This document shows, piece by piece, positions 4,046 through 63,485 of a stretch of 63,485 bases of DNA (the first letter of the stretch is position 1; each line of letters begins with the position of its first letter). The notes beneath the pieces were generated by a model that did no database searches, was not told the origin of the DNA, and saw only the letters and a program-made list of their open reading frames with translations. The translations under genes and the position numbers were made by a program. This DNA is from Gammaproteobacteria bacterium. Lineage in GTDB: Bacteria; Pseudomonadota; Gammaproteobacteria; UBA4575. Location of the stretch: contig JAPONM010000021.1 in the NCBI GenBank assembly GCA_026713925.1, positions 1 through 63,485 of the forward strand. Reading direction: 5' to 3'.

Positions 4046-4305
4046 TTTTCCTTCCAACCAGGCAAACAGGCCGATACCCTTGCACAAAGATGCGGATCTT
4101 CAAGTTTTTCAGGCGTGAGCCAAAGATCAAACGGCCTCGGTGCGGGACGATGGAGCTTTATCGGGAAATAGACAAAAGACTTGAGGCATGGAAAGCCTCC
4201 GAGGAGGGGAGATCTGCCACACCTGAGCAGGAGGCTCGGATGCGGGAGGCGATTTCACGCGTGGTTGACTGGGAATGCATACATGCGGACTGGACTTTCC
4301 GCTAG
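4042..4305 (+). CDS. Hypothetical protein, charged; 3' end runs into an IS remnant
   Basis: 87 residues, rich in Lys, Arg and Glu, with a helical middle (MELYREIDKRLEAWKASEEGR). The last codons lie within about 30 bp of the truncated end of the IS3-type orfA remnant (4333-4551), so the natural C-terminus may have been lost. The true start may be one of the internal methionines (4093 or 4150). No family recognised. Confidence 0.35.
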   Translation: MIFLPTRQTGRYPCTKMRIFKFFRREPKIKRPRCGTMELYREIDKRLEAWKASEEGRSATPEQEARMREAISRVVDWECIHADWTFR

Positions 4306-4332
4306 GCCTGAAATTCCTGGAATAATGTTCCA

Positions 4333-4551
4333 CAGGTCCGCTACCATCTGCTTCAGACGACGGTTCTCATCCTCCAGCTCCTTCAGCCGGCGAACCTCCG
4401 AAGGCGCCAGCCCCCCGAACTTCTTCTTCCACCGGTAGAACGTCTGCTCCGAAATCCCCAGCCTGCGGGTCACTTCCGCGACACTCATTCCGCCCTCATG
4501 CTGGTGCAGGGCATAGGCGATCTGCTCCTCGGTAAACTGCGACTTCTTCAT
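4333..4551 (-). pseudogene. IS3-family transposase OrfA remnant
   Basis: From the ATG at 4551 the frame encodes 73 residues of a classical IS3-family OrfA: helix-turn-helix with FTEEQIAYAL, VAEVTRRLGISEQTFYRWKKKFGG, and the leucine-zipper start ELEDENRRLKQMVADL. At 4333 homology stops abruptly and 26 unrelated residues follow to a stop at 4255. OrfB, which carries the DDE catalytic residues, is absent. The element is a dead fragment marking past insertion and deletion in this region. Confidence 0.85.
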
Positions 4552-4601
4552 GCAAAAACCTCCTTCCCCTACCGGGGCATCTTAACGAGATTTTTCACAC
4601 A

Positions 4602-4832
4602 ATGCCCGGATCAGATTACGGGGAGAAGACCACCACGCAGGGCATGGAAGATACTGCCCATAAAGCAGGACAAATGGAGTGCCAGTTGGATATGTCCATG
4701 CCACCCAAGCATTATGACAGGGTGCAGATCATTACAGCTTATGAAATCATTGAGGCGGGTCAGGTTGATTGCCCGCCCAGCATCCTTGAAGTAAGAAACT
4801 ACAGGAAGGTTCAGGGGGAAATGCAGGTATGA
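4602..4832 (+). CDS. Hypothetical small protein, first of an overlapping pair
   Basis: 76 residues. It begins about 50 bp past the ATG-proximal end of the IS3 remnant and lacks a clear ribosome-binding site at 4602, so the annotated start may be an artefact of a 5' truncation; internal methionines at 4644 or 4692 are alternatives. The stop overlaps the next start in an ATGA arrangement (4829-4832). The compact pair of small genes resembles the layout of toxin-antitoxin modules, but I recognise neither protein. Confidence 0.4.
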   Translation: MPGSDYGEKTTTQGMEDTAHKAGQMECQLDMSMPPKHYDRVQIITAYEIIEAGQVDCPPSILEVRNYRKVQGEMQV

Positions 4833-5017
4833 ATAAACGCCAGTTTGACAAGGTTGAACGCAGGGGCGTATCAGAGGCAGATTTCAAGGATGCATTAAAG
4901 CAAGTGCTGCTGGCTCCACGCGGGGAAGCCAGAAGCGAAACCTATGAGCCTGTCATCGAGGAACTAAACCAGAAGTGGCGACTGGATCGGGTCAAGCCTA
5001 AGTTTACTAGTATGTAG
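4829..5017 (+). CDS. Hypothetical small basic protein, second of an overlapping pair
   Basis: 62 residues, charged and helical (FDKVERRGVSEADFKDALKQVL). Translation is likely coupled to the upstream gene through the 4-bp ATGA overlap, and an AGGTATG lies at the junction. The stop is 25 bp before the left copy of a 23-bp direct repeat (5042-5064). Function unknown. Confidence 0.4.
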   Translation: MNKRQFDKVERRGVSEADFKDALKQVLLAPRGEARSETYEPVIEELNQKWRLDRVKPKFTSM

Positions 5018-5041
5018 TAGTTACGGGCTTTGCAGATATTG

Positions 5042-5064
5042 CTACATAATTCCCTTAATTTAGG
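5042..5064 (+). repeat. 23-bp direct repeat, left copy
   Basis: The sequence CTACATAATTCCCTTAATTT followed by AGG occurs here and again at 7611-7633, identical over 23 bp and in the same orientation. Here it sits in the leader of the exonuclease gene, just upstream of a truncated IS1595-type transposase. It may be part of the end or leader of an IS1595-family element present in two partial copies. Confidence 0.8.
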
Positions 5065-5116
5065 GGTTTATATACAATAGTTACCAAAGCCAAGTGTTTT
5101 TAAGAGGCAAATAATC

Positions 5117-5848
5117 ATGTCGTATCCTTACGAAAAATTTGATGGATTGGGTAAAGTAGCAGTAATAGATGTGGAAACTACGGGCTTAAACTCAGAAAAG
5201 GACAGAATTGTTTCTGTCGCTGTGTTTCGTGTTGATCTTTCAACCCCTAAATTAAATGAGGACTTGAAAGGAGAAATACTCAATTATGTAGTTGACCCTC
5301 AATGTACGATTCCCAAAGATGCCAGTGATATACATGGAATCACAAATGCAGATATTAAAGACAAACCGACATTTTCTGAAATTGCAAAAGAATTAAGAGA
5401 TTTTATTGGGACATTGCCTTTGATTGGCCACAATGTTTCATTTGATAAGAAATTTCTAAGTGCAGAATTCAAGCGTGTTGGAGTAAAGACACTTCATAGG
5501 AATAAATCTTATTGCACAATGTATCGATACAGGCAGTGGAATAATGGAATACGTAAAGGTAGCTCTCTAGATGCTGTAGCAAGACAGTTTTGCTTCCAAG
5601 GTCGGAAAAATGGAAAACATAGTGCGTTAGAAGATGTAGGTATCACCGCGAAAATTGCTGCTTTGTATGTGCTGCAAGATCGCGATAAATTCCATCCTGG
5701 AGAACCTCCTGGCTTTCCAGAACGAGAACAAAATTATAAAAGGAAGCATCACTCAGGCAAATCAGTTCCAATAAGCAAGAAAAAGTTTTCGCTTCAGTTT
5801 GTATTCATAGCCATCATTCTTATTACTGTATGGATACTTTTCTTTTGA
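5117..5848 (+). CDS. DEDDh 3'-5' exonuclease with C-terminal membrane anchor
   Basis: 243 residues. The DnaQ-like fold is clear from Exo I (DVETTG, about 14-19), Exo II (GHNVSFD, about 100) and Exo III (HSALEDV, about 175), which supply the four acidic metal ligands and the catalytic His of the DEDDh class. After a basic linker the protein ends in a hydrophobic segment (FVFIAIILITVWILFF), a predicted tail anchor, which is unusual for soluble proofreading-type exonucleases. Its TGA stop abuts the conserved core of a beheaded IS1595-type transposase, so this gene sits where the transposase 5' half should be. The region is AT-rich, unlike the flanking core genome. Role unknown; a nuclease acting on foreign DNA is one possibility. 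Confidence 0.85.
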   Translation: MSYPYEKFDGLGKVAVIDVETTGLNSEKDRIVSVAVFRVDLSTPKLNEDLKGEILNYVVDPQCTIPKDASDIHGITNADIKDKPTFSEIAKELRDFIGTLPLIGHNVSFDKKFLSAEFKRVGVKTLHRNKSYCTMYRYRQWNNGIRKGSSLDAVARQFCFQGRKNGKHSALEDVGITAKIAALYVLQDRDKFHPGEPPGFPEREQNYKRKHHSGKSVPISKKKFSLQFVFIAIILITVWILFF

Positions 5849-6532
5849 CTATGGATTTATGTTGCCTACACGCTTATGACTTCACGCAAGGGTATTTCCA
5901 GTTTGCAGTTGTCCAAAGAGATTGGTGTACAGCAAAGAACGGCTTGGTACATGTTGCATCGTATGAGATTGGTTTGCGGAGATAACCTTGAGGCTTTGCA
6001 TGGAGAGGTTGAAATGGATGCCACTTATCTTGGTGGTCTGGAGAAAAACAAGCACACTTCAAAGAAGTTAAAAGCTGGCAGAGGAACAGTTGGAAAGCAA
6101 GCTGTACTCGGTATGAAACAAAGGGAAGGTCGAGTAAAGGCTATCACTGTTGAAGGTGAGGATAGAGACACCATTCACAAGGCCATTTCCGAGAATGTTG
6201 AAACTGGTTCTACGATCTATACGGATGAGCACAGAGGCTACAGGAATATTGAGGGTGAGGATTACAGCCATAAGAGTGTATGTCATTCAGCCAAAGAGTA
6301 TGTGAATGGAATGGTGCACACAAATGGTGTTGAGTCGGTTTGGTCAACCATCAAGCGTGGGTTTAATGGTACATATCACCATTGGAGCAAGAAGCACTGT
6401 CAGCAATACATCAATGAGTTCACGTTTCGTCTGAATGAAGGGAATGTGGATCGGGATACGCAGGACAGGCTGGATGATTTGTTCAAGGCTATGGTTGGAA
6501 AGACTATTACTTATGAACAGTTGGTGAGTTGA
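5849..6532 (+). pseudogene. IS1595-family (ISXO2-like) transposase, N-terminus missing
   Basis: Open from 5849 (first ATG 5876) to 6532. The segment TSRKGISSLQLSKEIGVQQRTAWYMLHRMR and the downstream DDE-type core (EVEMDATYLGG, YTDEHRGYRNI, HTNGVESVWSTIKRGFNG) are standard for ISXO2-like transposases. Family members carry about 80 more N-terminal residues with a zinc ribbon; here that part is absent and the in-frame stop just upstream belongs to the exonuclease gene. It is therefore most likely inactive, though the catalytic core is intact. Confidence 0.88.
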
Positions 6533-6638
6533 GAGTGAATAAAAAACTAGAGGATAAACACATATGAATCATGAAAGAGAGTAAAGAAAATCCGAAGCTG
6601 TTAAGATTCGGACCTTCATTATTCTTGTGGAGAAATCT

Positions 6639-7034
6639 ATGAAAACAATTGCCTTGTTATCAACCATGTACCTATTATTAAATCCGGTATTCGCCGCATC
6701 AGAAATCACTTTTGATGAGGTAAACAACACATTTGGTGCAGAGGCAAATTTAACCGATCTACAAAAGGATGAAATGTGGAAAAAATATCGTGGCAAATGT
6801 GTTGAGTGGACAGGAATACTTACTCACCTTGACTCTGGCATGTTCGGAGGAATTGATATCGGGATGAAGCACCTTAGAGAAACATTAACTTTCGATGTAC
6901 TTATCAGTGCTCCCAAATCCATGAAAGAAAAGTTCATGTCCTGGCAGCAAAACAAACAATACACTTATCGTGCTACCTTGGAACGCTATGGTGGATTTTT
7001 CTTACCAATTTCAGCAGATTGGGGCTGTGAATAA
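6639..7034 (+). CDS. Secreted small protein, possible OB-fold
   Basis: 131 residues with a signal peptide (MKTIALLSTMYLLLNPVFA, cleavage after FAA). The start at 6639 follows TGGAG and gives the compact signal sequence; an in-frame codon at 6627 adds four residues. The mature part has WTGILTHLDSG and alternating strands typical of small OB-fold (tRNA_anti-like) periplasmic proteins, a weak assignment. First of three closely spaced plus-strand genes (6639, 7051, 7428). Confidence 0.6.
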   Translation: MKTIALLSTMYLLLNPVFAASEITFDEVNNTFGAEANLTDLQKDEMWKKYRGKCVEWTGILTHLDSGMFGGIDIGMKHLRETLTFDVLISAPKSMKEKFMSWQQNKQYTYRATLERYGGFFLPISADWGCE

Positions 7035-7050
7035 TCAGGAGGGACTGATC

Positions 7051-7389
7051 ATGAGAAAAGCTGGAGGTATTATTGCTTTGATTGCTGGTGTTTTCGCTGT
7101 ATTTGCAGCAGGCTTCACCTTGTTTGTAGGCGGGATAGGAAGTGCCTTTAATGCTGAAGATGCTGGCACTATAGTTGGCCTTGGATGGGGAGGCGTGGCA
7201 TTTTCATTTCTTGCGATTGTCTTGGGTGCAGTGGCTTTGGGAACGGAAAGAAAGATTATGGGAATCCTTATAGTAGTCTGTGCGATCGGAGGTGCGATCT
7301 TGGGAGGAACGCTTGTGGCCATTTTCATGGCTCTTGCGCTTGTCGGTGGTATTCTGATTATTGCTGCTCCACGAAAACATGACCAGTGA
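7051..7389 (+). CDS. Small membrane protein, DUF4064-like
   Basis: 112 residues, almost entirely hydrophobic with three to four predicted helices: GGIIALIAGVFAVFAAGF, VAFSFLAIVLGAVAL, and two more near the end, finishing in the charged tail RKHDQ. A perfect AGGAGG lies 8 bp before the ATG, 16 bp after the stop of the secreted protein. The Gly/Ala-rich helices resemble the DUF4064 type of four-helix membrane proteins. Function unknown. Confidence 0.6.
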   Translation: MRKAGGIIALIAGVFAVFAAGFTLFVGGIGSAFNAEDAGTIVGLGWGGVAFSFLAIVLGAVALGTERKIMGILIVVCAIGGAILGGTLVAIFMALALVGGILIIAAPRKHDQ

Positions 7390-7427
7390 GTGAGCGCAGC
7401 GAACTACTGGTCACTAGAGGACTAAAT

Positions 7428-7589
7428 ATGATAGATCAAAAGAAACTCGATAAAGCTGTAAGACTTTTCCTGAAAATGCCAGCACCTCCTGAACATAAGA
7501 GGCGCGTTCCTACTGCTGAAGAACTCAAGCAGAAGTTTGTTTTGAGGACGGATGACAAAGGGAATCCGGTTATGAAGGAAGTTAAATGA
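7428..7589 (+). CDS. Hypothetical small basic protein
   Basis: 53 residues starting MIDQKKLDKAVRLF after a GAGGAC site. It follows the membrane-protein gene; between them lies a 7-bp inverted repeat (GACCAGT...ACTGGTC, 7381-7412). The gene ends 21 bp before the right copy of the 23-bp direct repeat. No family recognised. Confidence 0.45.
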   Translation: MIDQKKLDKAVRLFLKMPAPPEHKRRVPTAEELKQKFVLRTDDKGNPVMKEVK

Positions 7590-7610
7590 GAGGTTGGTTT
7601 GTCAGGTTAA

Positions 7611-7633
7611 CTACATAATTCCCTTAATTTAGG
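7611..7633 (+). repeat. 23-bp direct repeat, right copy
   Basis: Identical to 5042-5064. The two copies bracket 2.5 kb holding the anchored exonuclease, the beheaded transposase and three small genes. Sequence after the repeat differs from that after the left copy. Confidence 0.8.
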
Positions 7634-7771
7634 TAAGACGCAGGGCGTTACATCGATCATCCGGTCCCTGACAGGTGTTAAAAACGAAGATCGAGATGGG
7701 TGTCAATCATATGGAATGGATCCGTGTTGTCCGTCGCGACCCCCGCATATCAAATCTGCAACCGCAAGCCG

Positions 7772-7979
7772 TTAGTTGACTTCACTCTCCGCCCACACTG
7801 GATCCACCCCCAGGGCGAGAAACGCCATGGCCAGGTAAAGCCCGATCGATAAAATGCTGGATGGTCCAAATGGATTTTGTCTGGTCAGGCAGAAGGTAAT
7901 TCTTGGCTGAGATATAAAAAGAGCCCACCAATAGGACCAAACCTAAGGCGGACTCTCCCAGTGCACGGAGTACTTGCAC
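7772..7979 (-). pseudogene. Possible frameshifted small membrane protein
   Basis: From an ATG at 7979 the frame gives a hydrophobic segment (ALGESALGLVLLVGSFYI), then turns into Gly/Ser-rich nonsense. The adjacent frame from about 7865 to a stop at 7772 instead reads SSILSIGLYLAMAFLALG and ends AESEVN, again hydrophobic. One base change near 7860 would join them into a two-helix protein. The rest of 7634-8246 shows no gene. Confidence 0.3.
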
Positions 7980-51151: not shown

Positions 51152-51886
51152 TCAGTACCCCAGAACACTGTAGTTGCCATTCACAACCAGGCAAAGGGAG
51201 ACGTACAACCCTAGTAACGCACTCAGCACCCAAACCGAATTGATTGCAAGGATATAGGTGTACATCTCGCGTCGGCTGATCCGGGTTTGCCGCTTGGCCA
51301 CAAAGAAACTGACCCAGTAGACTGACGTCACGTAGGTCCACTGCCAGAACAGCATGACCCCGAGAATGCCTGCAAAGAGAGCGGGCAGGAAGTCGAGCGT
51401 ATAAGCTGCGTACAGGATCAGTGTCGGAACCGGCGTTACAAAGCCGTTGGCAATATCTGCGTTGTAGCCGAACGTCCGGCGGTCTGCATAGGAGCCATCG
51501 TACTGGGAGTAGGTGGCCCAGGCATCGGCCCAGAGCGTCGGCGACAGTATTTGTGTCAATGGGACCTTTGTTACAAGGAATTCCAAGGATGGTTGCCGGC
51601 CGGTTTCACGCTGCCACTCACGCCAATATTCGGTGCGTATCTCTATATAGTCCCGTCGGAGGAACAGACATGCCTCCCAGTAGCAGATCAGCAAATTGAT
51701 CGAGAAGAACAGGCTCAAGAAGGAATGGATGACGTTCAGGTCCCCGTGAACGTAGTAGCGTGTACCGATGCCGAGAAGTGCAAGGATTGCGACGCTCAGC
51801 GCCATGAACAGTCCCACTGGTATCGTCAGGCTGGTCTGGTCTGCATCTTGTTCGGGAAGCTCTCGATCGGCGCGGTATTCGGGCAT
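51152..51886 (-). CDS. Emopamil-binding-protein-like sterol delta8-delta7 isomerase (putative)
   Basis: 244 residues, five predicted helices, the EXPERA/EBP plan. Remembered human and plant EBP align by spacing: Glu71 in helix 2 with EBP Glu80; WATYSQYDGSY (123-133) matches WKEYAKGDSRY at W, Y, D and Y; Asp144 lies 11 residues on, where EBP has Glu122; and YTYILAINSVWV (209-220) matches plant YAYFIGANGSWV, including the Asn and Trp of the sterol pocket. EBP His76 is not matched. EBP moves the sterol C-8 double bond to C-7 in the membrane. Location beside a sterol methyltransferase supports this. GAGGAT lies 9 nt before the ATG. A long loop between helices 2 and 3 is unusual. Otherwise it is an orphan membrane protein. 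Confidence 0.6.
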   Translation of the reverse strand: MPEYRADRELPEQDADQTSLTIPVGLFMALSVAILALLGIGTRYYVHGDLNVIHSFLSLFFSINLLICYWEACLFLRRDYIEIRTEYWREWQRETGRQPSLEFLVTKVPLTQILSPTLWADAWATYSQYDGSYADRRTFGYNADIANGFVTPVPTLILYAAYTLDFLPALFAGILGVMLFWQWTYVTSVYWVSFFVAKRQTRISRREMYTYILAINSVWVLSALLGLYVSLCLVVNGNYSVLGY

Positions 51887-52471
51887 GTATTTTGATCCTC
51901 ACGGATAGTTCTGTGTCGCGGGTCCCTATTGTACTGTCTGTCCCTTTGAAAAACCTCATCCGCTTGAAATGGGGGCTGGTTGTCCCAAATGGATTACAGG
52001 ACTTCTACCCGCAAATCTTGCCATCCACCAGGGCATGGTCGTTGCTTTGGTAGGGCCGGGTTTCGGTTTGCCCGATATGGAGCTTTTTCAGTATTCTGGC
52101 TGGCCGTCGGCAGATTTACTGCAAACCGCTGTCGGAATGGAAGCCGAAAATAACGAGCACGATCATGTTCCCATGATCCCGAAATCATCACCTTCGGGCT
52201 CACCCCTTGGAAAACTCCGGAGGTTGATTTTGGCACACTAGCCATGTAGCATCGATACGCTGAGCTGGGGCCAAAAGTCTGCAGAGATAGTGGGACATTC
52301 GGCCCAGGAAGGGAGCCCCCGAGACACATCCAGAGCAAGGGTGGTCAGCCTCGAGGTGCAACTGAACTAACTGGGTCACTGAAGTTTCTACTGGCGGGCC
52401 TACGGCGGCCCGTAACCGTTTCTCGCATTTCTGCTGATTTATTCCCGCAATATTCTACTCCTGGAGAAATC
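51887..52471. other. Divergent regulatory gap between the EBP-like gene and the SMT gene
   Basis: 585 bp with no convincing gene. Frames at 51969-52241 (+) and 51994-52338 (-) overlap each other and lack good ribosome-binding sites. It must hold both promoters. Near its right end GGCGGGCC-TACG-GCGGCCCG (52394-52412) is a hairpin. Confidence 0.45.
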
Positions 52472-53527
52472 GTGCGAACCTCTCAAAATGATCGATCGCC
52501 GCGTACTGTCACCAAACGATCGAGTTCTCGTTCCCTTGGGGGGCTCGCCCCGGATGAAATAAAATCCGTCGTCGATCAATACACCGGGCTCCACGATGTT
52601 GGCGCGGAGCACAGAAGAGAGCATTACCAGATACTCGTTAATCACTACTACGACCTGGTGACCGATTTCTACGAGTTCGGATGGGGTCGGTCCTTTCACT
52701 TTGCCCCCCGAAGACGAGGCGAGAGCTTCAAGGCGTCGCTGCTCAGGCACGAGCATTTTCTTGCTGACCGTCTGTCCCTGAAACCGGGGATGCAAGTACT
52801 CGATGTGGGGTGCGGAGTTGGGGGTGCGATGGTTACGCTGACCCGCTATTCCGGGGCTAGCTTTGTCGGTATCAACAATAACGCCTACCAGATTGAGCGC
52901 GCGAAAGAGCACACCCGGGATGTCCGGCCGTTGTGCCGCTTCATCGACGGCGACTACATGCAGATACCTGAAGGTGACGACTGCTACGATGGCGCCATCG
53001 CCATCGAGTCCATGCCCCACGCACCGGACAAAACAGCAGCGTTCAAGGAGATCTTCCGTGTCCTGCGTCCGGGGGCCTGTGTAGCAGGCTACGAGTGGTG
53101 TCTCACTGAACAGTTTGATCCGCACAACGCAGAGCATCTGCAGATCAAGAAAGTTATTGAGATTGGGAATGGGCTGCCGGATATCGCCACCACTTCGGAG
53201 GTTTGCACCGCATTTCGCATGGCCGGATTCGAACTCCTGGAAGCCCGCGACCTTGCCCCTGAATCGCATCCAAAAATGCCCTGGTACCGCGCCTTGCAGG
53301 GCCGCGATCTCAGCCTTACGAGTATTCCTCGCACACCGGTTGGGCGCGCCTTGACCAATCTGGTGTTAAAGGCTGGCGAGAGGCTGCAGATGTTTCCAAA
53401 AGGTACCACCATGGTCAGCACGTTGTTGAATAGGGCGGCGGACGCGCTGGTGGAAGGTGGCAAGTCCGGTGTTTTTACTCCAATGTTTTTCTTCTTGGCC
53501 CGTAAACCCCGGCGCTCGGGCGACTGA
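52472..53527 (+). CDS. Sterol C-24 methyltransferase (SMT/ERG6 type)
   Basis: 351 residues, GTG start with GGAG 6 nt upstream. All four SMT regions are present in order: region I YYDLVTDFYEFGWGRSFHF (59-77), region II LDVGCGVGG (110-118, SAM binding) with GINNNAYQ, region III AIAIESMPHAPD (175-186; eukaryotic copies read EATCHAP), region IV YEWCLTEQFDP (207-217), then EIGNGLPD and a C-terminal FTPMFFFLARKP. It transfers a methyl from SAM to C-24 of a delta24 sterol. Length matches yeast Erg6 without its N-terminal extension. It converges on the sterol operon and is divergent from the EBP-like gene. Bacterial SMTs have been reported only recently and mostly from uncultured lineages. Confidence 0.92.
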   Translation: MRTSQNDRSPRTVTKRSSSRSLGGLAPDEIKSVVDQYTGLHDVGAEHRREHYQILVNHYYDLVTDFYEFGWGRSFHFAPRRRGESFKASLLRHEHFLADRLSLKPGMQVLDVGCGVGGAMVTLTRYSGASFVGINNNAYQIERAKEHTRDVRPLCRFIDGDYMQIPEGDDCYDGAIAIESMPHAPDKTAAFKEIFRVLRPGACVAGYEWCLTEQFDPHNAEHLQIKKVIEIGNGLPDIATTSEVCTAFRMAGFELLEARDLAPESHPKMPWYRALQGRDLSLTSIPRTPVGRALTNLVLKAGERLQMFPKGTTMVSTLLNRAADALVEGGKSGVFTPMFFFLARKPRRSGD

Positions 53528-53712
53528 ATAAAGTACGTATTTGATCCCGAGACCCTCCACAGGACTGTCCATCCCTATCTTGATCTGCTGGAGAAAAGGT
53601 GGGAGTTACTCCTGGTCAGGACAGCATTGAACGCTATCCCAAAGAATACAAAGGTGCAGTAGACACCAGGGACACCATGCAACTCGTATAGGGCTTAGAA
53701 GAACACCCTGCT

Positions 53713-56700
53713 TCAGCCAGCCAGGGCGACAGCAGGGGTGGCAGGGGTCGTCAAATCCAGCCGGATCCGGCGCCGCTGCTCGTAGAGACCGAGCGCGTGC
53801 AGGGGAAAATACTGTCGATACAGGACGTAGTCCAACAGTGCCGTGCGGAAAAAGACCCCGGCCATGTCTTGTTTGGGCCATGACCCATCCGCATCCTGGG
53901 TGTTGAGCAAATACCGGGCGCCCCGCGAAATCGCGTTCCAACTCGAATCCCCCGCCTCGAGGAGCGCAATCAATGCCCACGCCGTTTGGATGACCTGACT
54001 TTCCTTGTGGTCAACGTATCGACCGGTCAAGCAGCCGCTGTGGTGCTCACCCCATCCCCCGTCCCTGTGCTGGCGGTCCAGCAGCCACCGGCAAGCCAAG
54101 TGCAGCGCCGGATCACCCGGTCGGGCTCCGGCGGCAAGCAAACCCCTGACCCCGAATAAAGTGCCGTAGATGAACTGAACGCCCCATACGCCGCGCCACG
54201 ATCCATCGCCTGCCTGGATCCGGCGAAGCCAGGCGCCAGCCTGTGAGATGGCGCGCATTACCGTCTGGTTCGTGATTTGCGGGAAGTGCTCCTTGCAAGC
54301 GGCAAGTGCCGCGAGGCAAGATGCGGTGCACTCGACGTAGGAATGTTCGGTCATCGAGTCGCCAAACATCTCGGCCGGATTAAGCCACTCGAGCCCCAAC
54401 ATGGAGCGTCGTGCCTCATAACTGCCAAAACCACCGTCACGGTTTTGACCACGCAACATGAAGCGAATCGCATCGGCGAGCGCTGTCGTGTCCGCGGCCT
54501 CGTGCTGGGCAGCGATAATCCCGAGCACCGCTTCTGCAGTGCAATCAGTCACCGGCCAGCCATGCCATCCCCCGGCAAAACACCAGCCGCCTTTGGGGTC
54601 GTTCCGATAAGCCTCGCGAAACCCGTCAAAGCTGGCGTCAATTTGTTGCCGGTACAGGAAGTCGGCTCCGGTTCGAAGAGCGCTTTGAACCCCGTCAAGC
54701 CCGGGTACCGCCGCCAGCGCCTGCAGGGAGAATCCGGTGTCCCACGAGGCGCTTTTCGCCCCGGTGACTCGCGTTCCATGCTCTTCGTCTTCCCAGATCC
54801 AGCCATCCAGTTGCGCGAGTGCCTGGCGACAGTCGGTGTCATCTGGGTCATTCAGCCACAAGGCAAGGATGTTTAGGAGACCGCTGACCGGAGAGATGCT
54901 CGTATGGCTGGTGGTTTGCAGTTCCCATTTGATGCGTCGGACTATCTCTTCCATACACCGGGTGCGCAGGCGTTTGCCGTGGAACCGTTCGAATAATCGC
55001 GCAAACCCATACCCAGCCCGGAGCCACAGACTGGGTCGTGCATAGAGGTCGCCGCCTCGCAAACGATTGCGGCCCGCGGAAAAATCGATGTTGGCAAACC
55101 CCTGGGGGAACAGCTCCTCCCGTAACGATGCGATCGAGGAGGTGACCGGTGCCTGGAACCGATGCGGATAAATCGCCGCCATCGCCATGTAGATGAGCCG
55201 GGTATGGCAGTACCAGTTCGAGGGATGTAACGCTATCCAACGCGGCAAGCTATACAGTTCCGGTAGAATGGCATTAACCCCGCGCCAGTCGTAGAGATTG
55301 AGGAGCGCCAGCCAGAACTTCCCCCAACTCGGGATACCAATAACCCCTTCAGCTTGCAGAAATCGCCGGGCCGGCTCGATTAACGGGTCTTCTCGCTCGA
55401 TCCCAAGTAGTCTCGCCGCCACGTACACCAGGGTGGTTACAAACAGGTGAGGAGGCGAGTGTTCGTGTAACCCCCATGAGCCTCCTTCCAGACGGGTCTG
55501 TTCAAAGGAGCGCAGCACACGTCGTCGCCGGCCGGATTCAAGTGGCTGCTCCATAATGTGGTGCAGCAGCACGTATTGCGCGGTGAGCATGGGACACCAA
55601 ACCATCTCACCTTCCCAAGCGCCATCCTCACCCTGGAGATTTAACAAGCGTGCAGTCGCGCTTCTCAATGCAGGGCCAGCATCGAGTGACACAACTTCCT
55701 TCGGGCGGGTGATCTTGGGGTCACCAACTCCTGATGACATGGAGGTCAGAAACGCGTGAGCCAACGTGTCTCGAGCTCGCTCATCTGTTTCTTTGCCCGT
55801 GTTTCTTATTTTCTGCTGCTCCTGAACGCCACGCACGAGCCACCTGAGACGAACAGCAAGTGCACGAACGATGTCGTAGACCCGGCGCCAAGCGAGTTGG
55901 TTGTAAGACCGCGGTATCTGCCTGGCAACTGCCCGAATTACCGCTATACTAAACTCGAAACTCAGACGGGTTACCGATGTTTCTTCACAGGCGAGTAAAC
56001 TTATGGTCCGGTTGTGGGCCTTGGAATTTGCCCGCCAACTCCGGTAGATCGCGTGCCTTAATGCCACTGACTCGACCCTATGATCAGCAAAGACCTCGTA
56101 GAGCCCCATGGCGAGGAACTCCGGAGCACGGGTTGCCAGGAAACGCTTAGTGGTAAAGTCGTGAAAATTCTCGCTCTCGGCCAGCATGAGCGCATCGCCG
56201 AAACCGAGGGTCATTCCCACTGCCGTCATGGGATGGTAATGCCCGGCTGCATCGCCAATAAGTACTCGATGTGGACTCCCATATGTGATTCGAGGCCTCA
56301 ACTCATTGGCTGCGATGTGGAATTTTCCCGCCTGCAACGCTTCAACAAACCCAGGCCTGAGTGTTTCCGGCAACAAGCCGGCATACGAGTCTGACAACAA
56401 ACCAACCCGGTCCCGGGGTATCCAGTGGTCCAATGGGACATCGACGATTACCCGGACACGATGTTCTCCCAGCTGGTACATGAGAATTGGACCCGGTCCA
56501 CCAAGCAACACATGCCCATAACCCTTCAGCGGTAAATTCACCCCTTTTACTATAACCCCCACCATCCGCGAGCAGGTCATCCGGCTTGTCGGCAAACCCA
56601 ACGACTTGCGCACGATTGAGGCCCGGCCGTCGGCGCCGACAGTCCGAGCGGCGGTCACGAATTTTTCGGCGCCGTTAAGGGCAAAAGTGACCCGCCCGTC

Positions 56701-57102
56701 TTCGACCGAGCGTACCCGCGCTGGGAGAAAAAAGTCGATATCCGGCTCGTTCTCGACAGCTTCATGCAGACGCGAGACGAGCATCGCATGCTCGCATGCT
56801 AAACCATGAGATCCGTCCGGATAAGGAAGCACCATTAACTCCGAGCCATCTTCCGGGAACACCACGAATCCTTTGCCCGTGGTGCTGTGAGGCTGCGTAT
56901 CGAACCCTATCCCGACATCGCGCAATATCCGCACGGCAGGCGGATGCAGCCATTCGCCAGCCAGCCGTCTGGAAGCTTTGGGGCTTGCTTCGAACAGAGC
57001 CACCCGGGCGCCTTTTCGCGCATGAGCGAGCGCACACACACTGCCTACCGGACCCGCGCCAACAATGGCTACGTCATAGTGCCGGGCCGTGGTGCCGTTC
57101 AT
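53713..57102 (-). CDS. Squalene monooxygenase-oxidosqualene cyclase fusion protein
   Basis: 1129 residues from the ATG at 57102, which overlaps the cyp51 stop (ATGA); the frame extends to 57282 inside cyp51. Residues 1-430: flavin monooxygenase with GAGPVG (15-20), RLAGEWLHPPAV, GADGRASIVRKSLG (155-169), and the GD motif IGDAAGHYHPMTAVGMTLGF (282-301), the SQLE pattern. After a linker (about 430-475), residues 477-1129: oxidosqualene cyclase with QW repeats, HPSNWYCHTRLIYM, the catalytic DCTAE (Asp853; squalene-hopene cyclases have DxDD) and LNPAEMFGDSMTEHSYVECTAS. One chain would thus epoxidise squalene and cyclise the product to a sterol. The pair is normally two genes. No stop or frameshift interrupts the frame. 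Last gene of the operon. Confidence 0.92.
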   Translation of the reverse strand: MNGTTARHYDVAIVGAGPVGSVCALAHARKGARVALFEASPKASRRLAGEWLHPPAVRILRDVGIGFDTQPHSTTGKGFVVFPEDGSELMVLPYPDGSHGLACEHAMLVSRLHEAVENEPDIDFFLPARVRSVEDGRVTFALNGAEKFVTAARTVGADGRASIVRKSLGLPTSRMTCSRMVGVIVKGVNLPLKGYGHVLLGGPGPILMYQLGEHRVRVIVDVPLDHWIPRDRVGLLSDSYAGLLPETLRPGFVEALQAGKFHIAANELRPRITYGSPHRVLIGDAAGHYHPMTAVGMTLGFGDALMLAESENFHDFTTKRFLATRAPEFLAMGLYEVFADHRVESVALRHAIYRSWRANSKAHNRTISLLACEETSVTRLSFEFSIAVIRAVARQIPRSYNQLAWRRVYDIVRALAVRLRWLVRGVQEQQKIRNTGKETDERARDTLAHAFLTSMSSGVGDPKITRPKEVVSLDAGPALRSATARLLNLQGEDGAWEGEMVWCPMLTAQYVLLHHIMEQPLESGRRRRVLRSFEQTRLEGGSWGLHEHSPPHLFVTTLVYVAARLLGIEREDPLIEPARRFLQAEGVIGIPSWGKFWLALLNLYDWRGVNAILPELYSLPRWIALHPSNWYCHTRLIYMAMAAIYPHRFQAPVTSSIASLREELFPQGFANIDFSAGRNRLRGGDLYARPSLWLRAGYGFARLFERFHGKRLRTRCMEEIVRRIKWELQTTSHTSISPVSGLLNILALWLNDPDDTDCRQALAQLDGWIWEDEEHGTRVTGAKSASWDTGFSLQALAAVPGLDGVQSALRTGADFLYRQQIDASFDGFREAYRNDPKGGWCFAGGWHGWPVTDCTAEAVLGIIAAQHEAADTTALADAIRFMLRGQNRDGGFGSYEARRSMLGLEWLNPAEMFGDSMTEHSYVECTASCLAALAACKEHFPQITNQTVMRAISQAGAWLRRIQAGDGSWRGVWGVQFIYGTLFGVRGLLAAGARPGDPALHLACRWLLDRQHRDGGWGEHHSGCLTGRYVDHKESQVIQTAWALIALLEAGDSSWNAISRGARYLLNTQDADGSWPKQDMAGVFFRTALLDYVLYRQYFPLHALGLYEQRRRIRLDLTTPATPAVALAG

Positions 57103-58508
57103 CGGAAAATGCTTGCTTGCGAGCGGCGGCTGTAGCGGAGCCTGCATGGTGTCTTGGGACCCGTCACCCAGCTGCCATAATTCGGGGCAGGAATCTCTGT
57201 ATCTAGATGAAAATCGAAGCGGTCGAGCAGCACGCTCCAGATCGCTTTCAGCTGCAGGACAGCAAAATGTTTCCCCATGCATCGATGTTTGCCGCCGCCA
57301 AAACCGATCAGGGTAAAGTGGTGTTGTTTGTCTTCGCTAGCGGGAGCGGCAAACCGATCCGGAGAAAACCGCTCCGGGTCGGAAAATATGTGCGGCAACC
57401 GGTGGGAAACCGCCGGCGACACAACCGCCAGGGTGCCGGCAGGCACGGTATAGCCCCCATAATGCAAGGGTTTGAGTACCTTGCGGATCAGCATGATCAG
57501 CGGCGGGTGCAGCCGCTCACACTCGCGTACGGCGTGTTCGAGCACCACCTGTCGTTTGAGGCTTTCAAGACTCATGGCTTCATCCTCGCGGTAAACGTCC
57601 TGCATTTCGTCTCTTACCCGCGCCAGGTACGAGGGTGCCCTCAGGAGCTCCAGAGCGGTCCAGGTTGCGAGCACCGCGCTTGTGTGTTGGCCTGCGAACA
57701 ACACCGTCAACAGGATCCCAGTAATCTCATCGTCGCTCAAAGCGCGTCCATCCGTGTATCGGGCCTGCATGAGTGTCTGCATGAAATCGTCGGGCCGGGC
57801 TCCGGAGAGCCGGCGTTCCGTCATGGTCAAGCTAAAGATCTCGGCCACTTGTTGCCGGGCCCGATCACGGATTCGATGCGCAGTGGTAGGAAGCCTGGGG
57901 AGAAAAAACCCCAGGGTGTTGATGCCATTTTGCAGGTTGTGATAAGCCTCGGCAAAACCCGCGTCCACTTGCTCCCGGACATCCTCTCCAATGAGGCAGT
58001 GGCTGGCGATATTGACTGTGAGCTCGTTCATCGCGTGCGGCAGATCGATTTCCCCGGCCTCACCGAGGGTGTCGGCAAACTGCCGCGTCTCCTCGAACAT
58101 GATGCGGGCAAACTTGCGCATCGCAGATTCGCGCAGCGCCGGATACAAAAACCCCAGTTGCTCGGCCATGAGTTCGGGGGAGATGTCGTAAGCCACGCCA
58201 CGTCCAAAGATGGGTACCGTGAACTGATAGACGGCTTTGGCGTTCAGTTGATCCTCGGGCGCCCGGAAGTAAAAGTCATGGGCTTCGGGTCCGGTGAAAA
58301 GAACAAAATCGCGGGGACCAAGCCGGAACCGTACGAGTTCGCCCTGTTCGCGCCATCCGCGGCTTAACATCGAGACCGGATCCTTTAGAAAATCCGGCAG
58401 ATGACCAATCAACGGCCACCCGCCCGCAAGCTCAGGAACGGCTTTTGCCGCCCGTTGCGAGGGCTGCGGCGAATGTGGGGTTGTCACACTGTGAGACCGT
58501 TGTGCCAC
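57099..58508 (-). CDS. cyp51: Sterol 14-alpha-demethylase, cytochrome P450 family 51
   Basis: 469 residues from a GTG at 58508 with AGGGG five bases upstream; an ATG at 58571 would overlap the preceding gene by 55 bp. CYP51 hallmarks: the B' signature AVYQFTVPIFGRGVAYD (93-108), I-helix FAGQHTSAV (271-279), ExxR in RECERLHPP, and the heme loop FGGGKHRCMGKHFA with Cys410. Removes the 14-alpha methyl of lanosterol-type sterols in three steps. It ends soon after the heme domain; it lacks the C-terminal ferredoxin fusion of Methylococcus CYP51, so it needs a separate electron donor. Its stop overlaps the start of the cyclase fusion. Confidence 0.94.
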   Translation of the reverse strand: MAQRSHSVTTPHSPQPSQRAAKAVPELAGGWPLIGHLPDFLKDPVSMLSRGWREQGELVRFRLGPRDFVLFTGPEAHDFYFRAPEDQLNAKAVYQFTVPIFGRGVAYDISPELMAEQLGFLYPALRESAMRKFARIMFEETRQFADTLGEAGEIDLPHAMNELTVNIASHCLIGEDVREQVDAGFAEAYHNLQNGINTLGFFLPRLPTTAHRIRDRARQQVAEIFSLTMTERRLSGARPDDFMQTLMQARYTDGRALSDDEITGILLTVLFAGQHTSAVLATWTALELLRAPSYLARVRDEMQDVYREDEAMSLESLKRQVVLEHAVRECERLHPPLIMLIRKVLKPLHYGGYTVPAGTLAVVSPAVSHRLPHIFSDPERFSPDRFAAPASEDKQHHFTLIGFGGGKHRCMGKHFAVLQLKAIWSVLLDRFDFHLDTEIPAPNYGSWVTGPKTPCRLRYSRRSQASIFR

Positions 58509-58516
58509 TTCTGCCC

Positions 58517-59617
58517 CTAATAGACAAACGGCAACATCGAATATCGCACCCGCTGCGTATAGCGTCCCCACAACTCGCCATACTTGGTTCGGCAGCGGTG
58601 ATCATCACGTCTTGAGCGATGCCACAACAGACCCGCCAACCACGCAGGTAACAGGTAGGGCACCCAGGATTCGAACCCCGTGGTAAGGGCGAACGCGAGG
58701 TAGATACAGATTTCGCCGGTATAGTTGAGATGTCGTCCAATGCCCCAAAATCCCGAAACCAGCAGGCGCCCGTCCAGGGACCGTGCAGGTTGCCCCCAAA
58801 TCGTGACGCCGGGGTCACGCTTGAAGCGGTGCTTTTGTTCGTTGGCGCCGCGGAAGAGCCAGAAGCCGAAGGCAAACAGCAGGATGATCGCAGCAGCGGC
58901 AATGAGAGACATCGGCCCCGAGGCGTGGACCAGCCACCAGCCCGCGAGGCAATAGAAAAAGGGCACCAACACGTAGTCTCCCCAAATCAACATCCATCCG
59001 AAGCGCTCGCTGACCATGTCCCAGGTGTGGGTCATTCCGTATTCAAACTGGAAGTAGTTGAGCACGTACAAGAAGGTGAAGATCTGATAGAGCGCCATTG
59101 CCAAGGTCAGCCCACCGTAGGTTTCATACTGCACTACGGCAAACGATGCGTTGAACAGCGCAAGGCCAATGAGGGAGGGGCGGTAGCTGAAAAGCTTCAA
59201 ATCCACCCCGAGCCAGGTCGGATTGAGTTCCACGCCAAAAAAGAAACCCTGTGAAATTCCCGGCGATGCATTCCGGGTCCGGACGGCTCGGTAATACAGC
59301 CATCCGGAAAGCGCGAATGCAAACACATTTGTTGCCACAAACAACGCGGCAAAGTGGGTATACAGCACGGAAAGAGAGAACCAGCCGAAGACCTGGGCGA
59401 GACCTGCCACAATCACGGTAACCAGGAACAAGGCGAGACCATTGAGCTTGTAGTCATGCAACTTTCCCTCATGGTCCGGTCCCGCTATCCGGCGTCCAGG
59501 CAGGAGCACAGATCCCAGAAACAAAGCGCCGAAAAACACCAGCATCATGACCGCCGCCTCAAGCAGGGTAGTGCCCGAGAGCGTGGACAACAAAAAGTGC
59601 AACTCAGACGCCGTCAT
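58517..59617 (-). CDS. ERG4/ERG24-family sterol reductase (C-14 reductase likely)
   Basis: 366 residues, eight or more membrane helices. Family motifs: LPGRRIAGP, FFFGVELNPTWLGVDLK, GDYVLVPFFYCLAGWWLV, FRGANEQKHRFKRDP and, near the end, LLVSGFWGIGRHLNYTGEI and HRSRRDDHRCRTKYGELWGRY, which bind NADPH. The family includes C-14, C-7 and C-24(28) reductases; directly behind CYP51 the delta14 reductase is most likely. Starts 14 bp inside sdmA's end and stops 8 bp before the cyp51 start. Confidence 0.9.
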   Translation of the reverse strand: MTASELHFLLSTLSGTTLLEAAVMMLVFFGALFLGSVLLPGRRIAGPDHEGKLHDYKLNGLALFLVTVIVAGLAQVFGWFSLSVLYTHFAALFVATNVFAFALSGWLYYRAVRTRNASPGISQGFFFGVELNPTWLGVDLKLFSYRPSLIGLALFNASFAVVQYETYGGLTLAMALYQIFTFLYVLNYFQFEYGMTHTWDMVSERFGWMLIWGDYVLVPFFYCLAGWWLVHASGPMSLIAAAAIILLFAFGFWLFRGANEQKHRFKRDPGVTIWGQPARSLDGRLLVSGFWGIGRHLNYTGEICIYLAFALTTGFESWVPYLLPAWLAGLLWHRSRRDDHRCRTKYGELWGRYTQRVRYSMLPFVY

Positions 59618-60701
59618 TACCGTCCTTCGTCTCGCTTGCCAGATATTCCTGCCACTTGCGCACGGTTACGTTCTGGAATGCCTTTACCACCGGATTGAAC
59701 TCGATGGGAGGGGCGTCCCAATGTTTCTCGTAACCCTGCTGCTCCGCTTCGACCGCATAGCGATCTTGGTCAAGCAGGGGGCCGATGAGCAAGCGGTTCG
59801 AGATCTTCAAAACCGTGGTCATGGCGAAACGGGGAATGTGCACCGGCAGCATAGGTATTTTCAGCGACTTGAAGTAGAACAAGAAGAACACCCGGGTAGT
59901 ACGCTCATCGACCGGTAGCACAAAAAGCCAGTGCTTTATCGCATCATCGGTGTTCGACCACTGATAAGGGTATTGAAAGCAAAGATCCATGTGATTGGTG
60001 TTTAACCGGCTGTGATCGACAAACAGTCCGGAGATACGCCCACGCCCGACCTGCGTATCGTAGGCGAGGTGCACGTTGTCACCGACAATCTCACAACGGG
60101 TGAGGGTGGCACCTTCGAAGGGGCGATATCGGCGGTGCAGATGGGCATGGGTGAAATCACTCACGTTGTCGATCACCATCGAGTGGTGAGCCGACCAGGT
60201 GAAGCTTAACGGTACGCAGGCCCACCGCGAGGGTCCCTCGAGCTCGGGAATATCCGGGATTTGGCGCAGGTGTGCTTGCTCCGGGTTCCCGGGGAACAGC
60301 CAGATCAGACCGTAACGAACCTTTACGGGATAGGCTTTAATGGAGGGTTTCGGGAGGTCTCCTCCGTTGCGGTCCTGGAGGATATCGACGCGGCGCCCGT
60401 TTTCGTCATACTGCCAGCCATGGTAGGCGCACACGAGCCGACAATCTTGCACCTCGCCCAGGGAAAGTTTGATCTGGCGATGTGCACAGCGATTCTCGAC
60501 CGCGTGAAACGAGCCATCTGTCCCCCGAAATAATGCAATGGAGCGTTTCCAGAAAATGATCTCGACCACGGTCCCCGGTTTCACCCGGTGTACTTCTTCA
60601 ACCGCGTACCAGTAATTCGGATCCAGACCTGTAGCACGCACTTGCTGGCGCAGATTGCAGGCCTCCTCGAAGCCGGGTGGTGTATTTGGCACTGGGCTCA
60701 C
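59604..60701 (-). CDS. sdmA: Rieske oxygenase, SdmA-type sterol C-4 demethylase
   Basis: 365 residues, GTG start overlapping the sdmB stop (GTGA), with GAGGGAGG upstream. Rieske ligands Cys72, His74, Cys91, His94 (CAHR and CAYHGW); mononuclear iron site around Asp182, His185 and His189 (DNVSDFTHAHLH). In Methylococcus capsulatus SdmA oxidises one C-4 methyl of the sterol and SdmB decarboxylates (family knowledge). Eukaryotes use the unrelated ERG25. A basic, partly hydrophobic C-terminal region suggests membrane contact. Confidence 0.85.
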   Translation of the reverse strand: MSPVPNTPPGFEEACNLRQQVRATGLDPNYWYAVEEVHRVKPGTVVEIIFWKRSIALFRGTDGSFHAVENRCAHRQIKLSLGEVQDCRLVCAYHGWQYDENGRRVDILQDRNGGDLPKPSIKAYPVKVRYGLIWLFPGNPEQAHLRQIPDIPELEGPSRWACVPLSFTWSAHHSMVIDNVSDFTHAHLHRRYRPFEGATLTRCEIVGDNVHLAYDTQVGRGRISGLFVDHSRLNTNHMDLCFQYPYQWSNTDDAIKHWLFVLPVDERTTRVFFLFYFKSLKIPMLPVHIPRFAMTTVLKISNRLLIGPLLDQDRYAVEAEQQGYEKHWDAPPIEFNPVVKAFQNVTVRKWQEYLASETKDGNDGV

Positions 60702-61837
60702 ATCGAGCCTCCCTCGGGAGTGACCGGTATGTTCTGGCTCGTCATGGAATTTTGTTTCATGGCATCCTCACACGGGGGGTTGGCAAGTGGATTTGTGATC
60801 GCGTTGCGGTGGTAGTGAAATGCGTAGGCCTCATGAACCGCAGCGCGGATACTGGTTGGCTGATAGCCAAGCTCCCGTCTCGCTTTGCTGGTGTCGGCGT
60901 GACGGCACTTTTTCAAGAGGCGGATGGCGCCAGGCGTGAACCGCTGGGGAAAGCCCGGGTGAAACCGGCTCAGATAAAAGCTCGCCACTTCCGAGAAAAC
61001 GAGCATCATGTGGAGTGGTATCCGCCGACCCGGTCGTGAAATGCCTGAGACCTCCTCGTACAGGTCCAGGATCTCGGAGATGGTCTTGTACTCGCTGCTG
61101 AAGATGTACTTTTCACCCGGGCGTCCCCGGTGCATGCACAACAGGTGCCCTTCCACGATGTCCCGTGCCGCGACAAACTCAAAACCGCCATCCACGTAAG
61201 CACGGAGCTTGCCGTGAGTGTAGTCGCACAAGGTTCTTCCCAATCGCGAGGGGAAATAATCGGCACCACCGACCACCGCGCAACACGTTGCGACGATGAC
61301 ATCTTGTCCCATCGCCGCGGCACGCCAGCACTCGTGCTCAACAAGTGCCTTGCTGCGCTCATAGGGCATCGTGCGTTCCATGGGATAGAACTGCATCGTC
61401 TCGTCACTGGGAGCAGCTGGATCATCTAAATCGTAACCGACTGCACTGAAAGAGCCCGTCACCACTACCCGGCCGGCCCCTGCCTCCCGCGCCGCTTGCA
61501 GCACGTTGCGGGTACCGAGAACGTTGCATTCGTACACTTCCCGGCGATAGGCGCGATTGCCTTCTATGGTCGAGATCTTGGCCGCGACGTGATACACACC
61601 TTGACAGCCTGCGACCGCGCTCCTCGTGGCATTCAAATCCCGAATATCACCAAACGAGCGTTCAACTTCAAGGCCTTCCAGTGCTTCGTTGTTGTCCTCG
61701 TGTCTCAGCAACACCCGGACTCGAGTGCCGTCGTCGAGCAGTCTGCGCACAAGGTTGGCACCCACATGCCCGGCTGATCCGGTCACGAGGACGGGCGGCG
61801 CCGATGAACCAGAAGATGTGCTTAATCCTGAAGTCAT
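60698..61837 (-). CDS. sdmB: NAD-dependent 3-beta-hydroxysteroid dehydrogenase/C-4 decarboxylase, SdmB type
   Basis: 379 residues from the ATG at 61837 (AGGA six bases upstream; the frame extends to 61879 without one). Rossmann TGSAGHVGANLVRRLL (19-34), catalytic Tyr159/Lys163 in PYERSKALVEHE, and a C-terminal half typical of 3-beta-HSD/NSDHL. It would oxidise the 3-hydroxyl and release the C-4 carboxyl made by SdmA, leaving a 3-keto sterol. First gene of the operon, 418 bp from the divergent FAD gene. No separate 3-ketosteroid reductase is seen. Confidence 0.85.
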   Translation of the reverse strand: MTSGLSTSSGSSAPPVLVTGSAGHVGANLVRRLLDDGTRVRVLLRHEDNNEALEGLEVERSFGDIRDLNATRSAVAGCQGVYHVAAKISTIEGNRAYRREVYECNVLGTRNVLQAAREAGAGRVVVTGSFSAVGYDLDDPAAPSDETMQFYPMERTMPYERSKALVEHECWRAAAMGQDVIVATCCAVVGGADYFPSRLGRTLCDYTHGKLRAYVDGGFEFVAARDIVEGHLLCMHRGRPGEKYIFSSEYKTISEILDLYEEVSGISRPGRRIPLHMMLVFSEVASFYLSRFHPGFPQRFTPGAIRLLKKCRHADTSKARRELGYQPTSIRAAVHEAYAFHYHRNAITNPLANPPCEDAMKQNSMTSQNIPVTPEGGSM

Positions 61838-62255
61838 ATAGTGTCCTGATTCTGAAGCTTCAATGACCAAGTCTGCCATTTTGCGGTATCAGGGATATGT
61901 AGGCAAGTGCAGGCTCCGATATGTGCCGTTTTGCAGCAGCGAGCCAGGCCTGCCAGCTTGCATGCACCGCCTCTACAGTGCTATCGCCGGTAACGGCGGA
62001 GCCCGGGCGTCAGTGTTGTTCTCTCCCGCCATGTGGGCTGGACGGTCAAGCACTTTCATGGCCATCTGCGCGCCCGCCACGGTTTTAGCTTGAACCACAC
62101 CTGTACCCGGAGAGTCCGGCGATGGATGATTTATAACGGCCTTCTTTGGAGGCAGGCAGGTTCTTTGCAATATATGTTTGACCGGGTATGGAATTTCGTT
62201 GGAGGAGACCGCGGACCGTAGTAGAGTAGGCGCCAATGTGAAGCGGGATGCGGCC
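61838..62255. other. Divergent promoter gap upstream of the sterol operon
   Basis: 418 bp with no supported gene; short frames on both strands conflict. It must carry the promoters of the sterol operon (leftward) and of the FAD oxidoreductase gene (rightward). No operator is recognised. Confidence 0.45.
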
Positions 62256-63485
62256 ATGCCAAGAAAAATTGCGATTATCGGTGCAGGAGTCTCGGGACTG
62301 GGAGTGGCCTGGGCGCTGCATCGGCATCCGGATCGATTCGATTTCCGACTGTTCGAAGCGCAGGCCCAGGTCGGCGGCAACGCCATTACGGCCGACATGC
62401 TGCAAGACGATGGAACCTCGATCCCGTTCGATATTTCCGTCACTGCGTGCATTCCTTCGGTATACCACCATATTCTTCTGTTCATGCAGCAACACGGTAT
62501 CGGGCTGGTCGATACCAGGTTCAGCTACAGCGTGAAGTATCGTGGCGGCATCTACGCTCACGATTTCGACTCCGACATCAGGAGGCAATTGCAACCGGAA
62601 ATCGAGAAATTCCAGAAGCTCCTGAGACGTCTGAAATGGTTTGGCAGGCTCAACCGCTCCAGGTCCAGATTGCTCAATGCGTTCAACCCGTTCAACTATG
62701 TCAGCATGGGTACGATGCTCAACCTGGGCAGGTTCTCCGGGGATTTCCGGTACAAGATACTGAAGCCCATGTTCGTCAACTTCCTGATGGCCACGAACGT
62801 GTTCGACATGCCTGCGTCCCTGTTTTCCCGGTACCTGGAATTTTTCGATATTGAAACTGCAACCCCGATGCAGACCTGGGACCAGGGCACGCGGCGTGTC
62901 TATGAAGAGATGTCAGCGGAATTTCAGGACAAGATATACCTTGAGCGGCCGGTTCGAAAAGTGTACCGGCGCCCGTCCGGGGTCGTCGTGGAGGACGGAA
63001 ACGGGGAAACCGAGACGTTTGACGATGTGGTGTTCGCGTGCAACGCGAACCAGACGCTGATGATGCTAGACCAGCCTACCTTCCTGGAGGGCTGGCTTCT
63101 CTCTTCGATCCGTTACGAGAGTGAACTGCACAACCATACGGTCGTTCATTCCGACTCGTCGGTTCTTCCGGACAGCGCCGTCAAGCCACTCGATACCCGG
63201 AGCAACCATATCGAGCAGTACGGTGTCAGGCCTGACAACTACGAAATCACCTACATCATGCACAATCAGCAGCCTGGGGCGAAGCGCTCGGACAAGCCAT
63301 GCCTGGTGACCTACAATCCGATCAGTCGTATCGACGAAGGCAAGATCGTCAAGAAATGGTGGTTTCAGCACATCGTGCACGACGTGCGTCACGTGGCTTT
63401 CCTGGTCCACTTGTTTCGATTTGTCCAGGGCAGGCGGCGCACCTGGCACTGTGGCGCCCACACCTTGATCAACAGCCAGGAGACC
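62256..63485 (+). CDS. COG2907-like FAD-dependent oxidoreductase, N-terminal 410 residues (cut by window edge)
   Basis: Open from the ATG at 62256 (in-frame GTG at 62238) to the window end. Starts PRKIAIIGAGVSGLGVAWAL, an FAD-binding dinucleotide fold, with QVGGNA completing it; later FDDVVFACNANQTLMML and, near the edge, FVQGRRRTWHCGAH match the COG2907 family, predicted amine-oxidase-like flavoproteins often beside cyclopropane-fatty-acid-synthase-like genes. Not a squalene desaturase of the HpnE type as far as I can see. A link with sterol metabolism is possible from position only. Confidence 0.75.
   Translation, partial: MPRKIAIIGAGVSGLGVAWALHRHPDRFDFRLFEAQAQVGGNAITADMLQDDGTSIPFDISVTACIPSVYHHILLFMQQHGIGLVDTRFSYSVKYRGGIYAHDFDSDIRRQLQPEIEKFQKLLRRLKWFGRLNRSRSRLLNAFNPFNYVSMGTMLNLGRFSGDFRYKILKPMFVNFLMATNVFDMPASLFSRYLEFFDIETATPMQTWDQGTRRVYEEMSAEFQDKIYLERPVRKVYRRPSGVVVEDGNGETETFDDVVFACNANQTLMMLDQPTFLEGWLLSSIRYESELHNHTVVHSDSSVLPDSAVKPLDTRSNHIEQYGVRPDNYEITYIMHNQQPGAKRSDKPCLVTYNPISRIDEGKIVKKWWFQHIVHDVRHVAFLVHLFRFVQGRRRTWHCGAHTLINSQET

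Follow-up and report, generated by a model that had tools for sequence, protein, structure and literature searches.

At the right-hand end of contig JAPONM010000021.1 (the window: all 63485 bases of contig C21 in a 1.99 Mb draft genome of 64 contigs and 92.84% completeness) we find a compact 10.7 kb block of genes that is quite likely a bacterial cluster of sterol-enzyme relatives leading from squalene to C-24-methylated sterols. The preliminary description of this DNA had proposed a bacterial cluster for C-24-alkylated sterols, and this is supported as the best reading. The block also encodes U244, a 244-amino-acid protein predicted to lie in the membrane and to adopt an EBP-like fold, for which the case as a sterol delta-8-to-delta-7 isomerase is about evenly balanced.

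Gene content of the block

The list of open reading frames holds eight relevant frames from position 51152 to the contig end. Seven of these are U244 (51152..51886, minus strand), a putative sterol C-24 methyltransferase (SMT, Erg6-like; 52472..53527, plus strand), a fused squalene epoxidase-oxidosqualene cyclase (53713..57282, minus; longest frame 1189 amino acids), the sterol C-14 demethylase CYP51 (57099..58571, minus; longest frame), an ERG24-like sterol C-14 reductase (58517..59617, minus), an SdmA-like Rieske oxygenase with predicted C-4 methyl oxidation (59604..60701, minus) and an SdmB-like NAD(P)-dependent enzyme with predicted C-4 decarboxylation (60698..61879, minus). The genes are tightly packed: SdmB and SdmA overlap by 4 bases and SdmA and the C-14 reductase by 14, the likely start of the fused gene (ATG at 57102) shares an ATGA with the CYP51 stop, and CYP51 itself likely starts at a GTG at 58508 (from comparison with the genus mate G004).

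Domain, profile and solved-structure matches place a gene for every activity named in the preliminary description where it had been located. The epoxidation and cyclisation are both present, with the addition, overlooked before, that one open frame encodes the two. The earlier span of 51152..61837 covers the cluster, although the longest SdmB frame reaches 61879 (a matter of start codon choice); its first position is a gene boundary, namely the 3' end of U244, to which no function had been given.

The epoxidase part of the fused frame matches PF08491 with 90.8 bits, and the cyclase part scores 510 bits against TIGR01787 (squalene/oxidosqualene cyclases; cut-off 322.7); PF13249 and PF13243 are matched in the same frame. 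The best solved relative of the cyclase is human lanosterol synthase (442 bits). Where the human enzyme reads CGWIVSDCTAE the window reads HGWPVTDCTAE, with a valine at human position 453, a residue that marks production of lanosterol rather than cycloartenol (PMC4919349); lanosterol is therefore predicted as the cyclase product. The DCTAE motif is found in 49 of 52 cyclase rows (it is absent from 3) and the valine in all 49. CYP51 matches PF00067 with 201.5 bits and has Cytochrome P450 51 chains (7jj1) as best solved relatives (345 bits), and the C-14 reductase matches PF01222 with 244 bits and the delta(14)-sterol reductase 4quv with 237 bits.

The SMT is predicted to methylate C-24 of delta-24 sterols. 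It matches Sterol_MT_C (PF08498) with 76.2 bits (cut-off 21.7) and the S-adenosylmethionine (SAM) methyltransferase domain PF08241 with 61.5 bits (cut-off 21.2). With a provisional yeast Erg6 sequence it shares 39% identity over 330 residues (249 bits); against that sequence it passes the 30% minimum identity to Erg6 that was one of the screening thresholds in Brown et al. 2023 (PMC10070321). In that study sterols were alkylated in vitro by 8 of 10 bacterial SMTs from sponge symbionts and by 12 of 14 from the environment, three of them proceeding up to a 24-isopropyl side chain. The best 120 of 2699 homologs are 71-97% identical to the window SMT. At E 1e-30 the gene is found in five of five genomes of the genus, in none of 14 others of the family and in none of 36 others of the class. 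A single clear SMT is present in its own genome, where the second-ranking methyltransferase match is 33% identical (57 bits), and phage records give one partial match (30%).

Gene content, order, the fusion, conservation and predicted folds are what the analysis shows; every reaction of the route proposed here, the number of methylations and the final product are inferred. The genome's one squalene synthase-family gene, located away from the block, would supply squalene; the fused enzyme would perform squalene epoxidation and then ring closure to lanosterol; CYP51 and the C-14 reductase would remove the 14-methyl group; and the SdmA- and SdmB-like enzymes would strip one or more C-4 methyl groups. 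The SMT would methylate the delta-24 side chain once or more at C-24, and U244 may carry out the delta-8-to-delta-7 shift in the ring, like animal EBP and fungal Erg2. The genome also carries two sterol-desaturase-family (PF04116) genes, which could act at C-5.

Conservation in other bacteria

Contigs of GTDB genomes were searched with the SMT (tblastn, E 1e-3), and the best 80 of 348 places were kept (50-84% identity). The weaker of the 348 may be other methyltransferases, and absence of a gene from a fetched stretch is weak evidence because the stretches differ in length. All seven parts are present in 43 of the 80 loci, and 41 of these 43 keep the six minus-strand parts in one direction and in the window order; this arrangement exceeds chance. 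The seven-part loci belong to Pseudomonadota (24, two of them genus mates), Chloroflexota (6), Nitrospirota (5), Acidobacteriota (2), Rhodothermota (2), Porisulfidus (2), Binatota (1) and Verrucomicrobiota (1), and part-by-part identity to the window ranges from 57 to 88%. Candidatus Porisulfidus gave no entry in a taxonomy look-up. Epoxidase and cyclase form a single frame in 45 of the 47 loci holding both, and the genus mate G004 has the same block, U244 included.

A second SMT (42-46% identity) occurs in two genus mates and in five Nitrospirota loci. In one genus mate the main SMT copy (L008, G003:C128:1204-2214) has a TAA stop inside, and the second copy (46% identity) is stop-free. Two neighbouring SMT-like stretches, 48-84% identical to the window SMT, are seen in each of the loci L043, L061, L064 and L038, as expected if enzymes divide successive methylations.

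The membrane protein U244

In two models the predicted fold of U244 resembles that of the human sterol isomerase EBP, with 177-184 aligned residues at 12-14% identity; the sigma-2 receptor is among the structural matches of the second model and not in the list of the first. In EBP, mutating His76, Glu80, Glu122 or Trp196 reduces or abolishes activity, and such mutants fail in yeast; Asn193 binds the ligand (PMC6549186). The U244 counterparts are E71 (Glu80), D144 (Glu122), N216 (Asn193) and W219 (Trp196), and across 40 aligned U244 homologs the respective columns hold E in 40, D in 40, N in 39 and W in 40. E71 and D144 were assigned to the EBP sites by helix and sequence, not by residue-by-residue alignment; N216 and W219 are placed on Asn193 and Trp196 by the last aligned pairs (238 with 215; 229 with 215), assuming an ungapped helix five.

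In all, 55 SMT-bearing genomes were searched for U244, Erg2 (PF04622) and Pfam EBP (PF05241). U244 is present in 41, Erg2 in 7 and both in none. PF05241 was found neither in these 55 genomes nor in the window's own genome, with a control match that was weak and below cut-off; PF04622 was not found in the own genome, where there was no positive control, though the family was detected in the 7 other genomes. The probability that all 7 Erg2 genomes fall by chance among the 14 without U244 is 1.7e-5, and it is 1.4e-4 in 48 genomes (35 with U244), after dropping 7 that had been chosen by locus (U244 or Erg2). Corrected for kinship, five independent pairs on starred branches are left, which is too few for a test; at most one of the five differs in Erg2, and Erg2 changes four times on the tree. 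The complementarity of U244 and Erg2 fits two alternative isomerases, but with few events after correction for relatedness it is suggestive only. Erg2 lies inside the fetched stretch of L029, L048, L050, L054 and L060 (the L048 copy was Pfam-checked).

There is about an even chance that U244 catalyses the delta-8-to-delta-7 shift in the manner of EBP. The wider proposal, that U244 founds a so far unnoticed family of bacterial sterol delta-8-to-delta-7 isomerases with the EBP fold, which would replace Erg2 in the clusters of many phyla, use a non-histidine proton donor and complete the route of sponge symbionts to delta-7 C-24-alkylated sterols, may equally well prove right or wrong. In the published literature searched, supplements aside, no bacterial EBP-fold gene in such clusters was found.

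A second U244 copy in the window's genome (L145:4336-5022, G000:C7) is 65% identical and lies outside the cluster. The 33.9 kb contig of G247, a class member with U244, carries none of the other cluster genes.

Points against the proposed route and alternative readings

A number of results weigh against the route or its isomerase step. On the side of the ring enzymes, the cyclase stays below the curated TIGR03463 cut-off (716 against 851 bits), and the matches of the SdmA-like protein to NF052579 (400.4 bits) and of the SdmB-like protein to NF052578 (303.9 bits) are both under equivalog cut-offs of 600, so that the two are named SdmA-like and SdmB-like only. Among solved structures the best matches of the SMT are small-molecule methyltransferases (67 bits), and the sole chain named 24-sterol C-methyltransferase (6f5z, 231 amino acids) reaches 35 bits; moreover, 4 of 24 bacterial SMTs were inactive in Brown et al. 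2023 (PMC10070321). The genome sequence is also of draft quality, at 92.84% completeness. As to the isomerase step, 7 of the 55 genomes have neither U244 nor Erg2, and by profile U244 does not resemble EBP (2.4% and 1.8% probability in hhalign). A counterpart of His76 is absent: all 40 homologs have I or V at the expected site, four before E71.

U244 is also without any Pfam match at E 10, PF05241 (EBP) included. As it fails the Pfam and profile tests as well as the residue test, U244 is filed as EBP-like in fold only. There is a real possibility, short of an even chance, that it is a non-catalytic protein of the EBP fold superfamily (such as a carrier or sensor of sterols) or serves another double-bond step. 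The sigma-2 receptor is thought to be a non-catalytic member of this superfamily.

It might further be argued that the SMT mainly modifies host-derived sterols and that the organism, which is likely a sponge symbiont, does not make sterols de novo. Brown et al. 2023 (PMC10070321) report a Chlamydiae metagenome-assembled genome (MAG) that lacks the rest of the sterol genes but has a working SMT, and several of our loci (e.g. L035, L039 and L047) have an SMT without another cluster gene within about 10 kb on each side. Here, however, epoxidase, cyclase and CYP51 adjoin the SMT, and the genome has a gene of the squalene synthase family, which makes this explanation improbable.

Finally, an assembly chimera or eukaryotic contamination, the latter raised as an objection in the preliminary description, is very unlikely even for a draft of 64 contigs, because the contig carries bacterial housekeeping genes (NAD-dependent ligase, SMC, Hsp70 and Mur ligase), the genes overlap or abut in operon-like packing, genus mates carry the SMT and G004 the entire block; the only two named among the best 120 SMT homologs are both bacterial MAGs. 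Two tRNAs lie on the contig as well.

The window cyclase is 86% identical to one from Binatota, 83% to that of G004 and 76-77% to those of two other genus mates, which hints at a recent transfer into the genus; the tree does not settle this. In the cyclase tree, computed after seven long or distant rows were dropped, the window and G004 form a pair (unstarred support 75). A tree keeping the genus together stands in the approximately unbiased test (p-AU 0.331 with three rows, 0.258 with four), as does one uniting 28 Pseudomonadota and Porisulfidus rows (p-AU 0.342). No transfer event is therefore claimed from these data.

Other genes in and near the clusters

The eighth frame, a flavin amine-oxidase-like gene (62248..63485, plus strand; PF01593), is truncated at the contig end and is a possible further cluster member. 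It diverges from SdmB and has relatives in 11 of the 80 loci; the nearest solved relative of the complete homolog in L033 is the amine oxidase LkcE (95 bits).

Two further families recur near the SMT of other loci. One, of about 675 amino acids, is seen in 12 of 80 loci (L020 at 4351-6378, L012, L015, L018, L022, L029, L033, L042, L061, L064, L068 and L075); it is absent from the window, and the one member checked, that of L020, combines a GPP34 (Golgi phosphoprotein 3) domain with a cytochrome P450 and is possibly a sterol oxidase. The other, of about 776 amino acids, is seen in 4 of 80 loci (L061, L063, L064 and L079), and the one member checked (L064:3196-5526) is an MMPL-family transporter. 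Within the window, positions 4001-12000 have a G+C content of 44% against 55% across the remainder, possibly a foreign stretch.

Significance

C-24-alkylated steranes in old rocks are usually taken as traces of algae, fungi or sponges, and this eukaryote reading loses force with each lineage of bacteria shown to possess the complete route. A genus with small genomes and an SMT in all five genomes searched is a good test case for the biomarker question. If U244 is an isomerase, it would fill the delta-8-to-delta-7 step in a setting where 48 of 55 SMT-bearing genomes are without a known gene for it (Erg2 and Pfam EBP searched), and the family may bear on the origin of animal EBP.

Comparison with known systems

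That bacterial SMTs are a recent finding from uncultured lineages, as noted in the preliminary description, is right (Brown et al. 2023, PMC10070321). Its claim of rarity went too far: clusters of this type are common among bacteria associated with sponges (PMC9531527), and we find at least 80 SMT-like loci in GTDB genomes. Kelly et al. 2022 (PMC9531527) reported clusters of C-14 reductase, CYP51 and lanosterol synthase (CSGs) in 115 of 537 MAGs of Ircinia, spread over ten phyla. An SMT or a squalene synthase flanks these clusters, and Erg2 occurs in several; the authors' trees indicate horizontal transfer. Elsewhere in bacteria, Lee et al. 2023 (PMC10202945) described myxobacterial cholesterol and named a homolog for C-8 isomerisation in a Calothrix cluster, and Lee and Welander 2025 (PMC12004948) a C-24 reductase.

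The available text of Kelly et al. annotates neither SdmA nor SdmB and mentions no membrane gene beside the SMT, and the main text of Brown et al. names neither Gammaproteobacteria nor an isomerase, erg2 or EBP (PMC10070321). The metagenomic clusters of the latter resemble the window in having an SMT with sdmA, sdmB and a cyclase, with fused epoxidase/cyclase homologs given in the methods. The likeness to the Ircinia clusters, which span many phyla including Gammaproteobacteria (PMC9531527), extends to gene order: C-14 reductase, CYP51 and cyclase lie side by side, in the same order and on one strand; a dihydroflavonol-reductase-like gene (SdmB-like in the window) and a hypothetical protein (SdmA-like in the window) stand at one end; and at the cyclase end the SMT (or squalene synthase in the CSGs) is found on the opposite strand. 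Given these published sponge-symbiont and metagenomic clusters, the window cluster belongs to an already known kind. What is predicted to be new beyond them is U244, an overlooked gene with an EBP-like modelled fold inside the block. For the same proposed step it differs from the Erg2/sigma-1 receptor family (PF04622), itself distinct from EBP, and it differs from human EBP (PMC6549186) in being bacterial, linked to a sterol cluster and without a PF05241 match.

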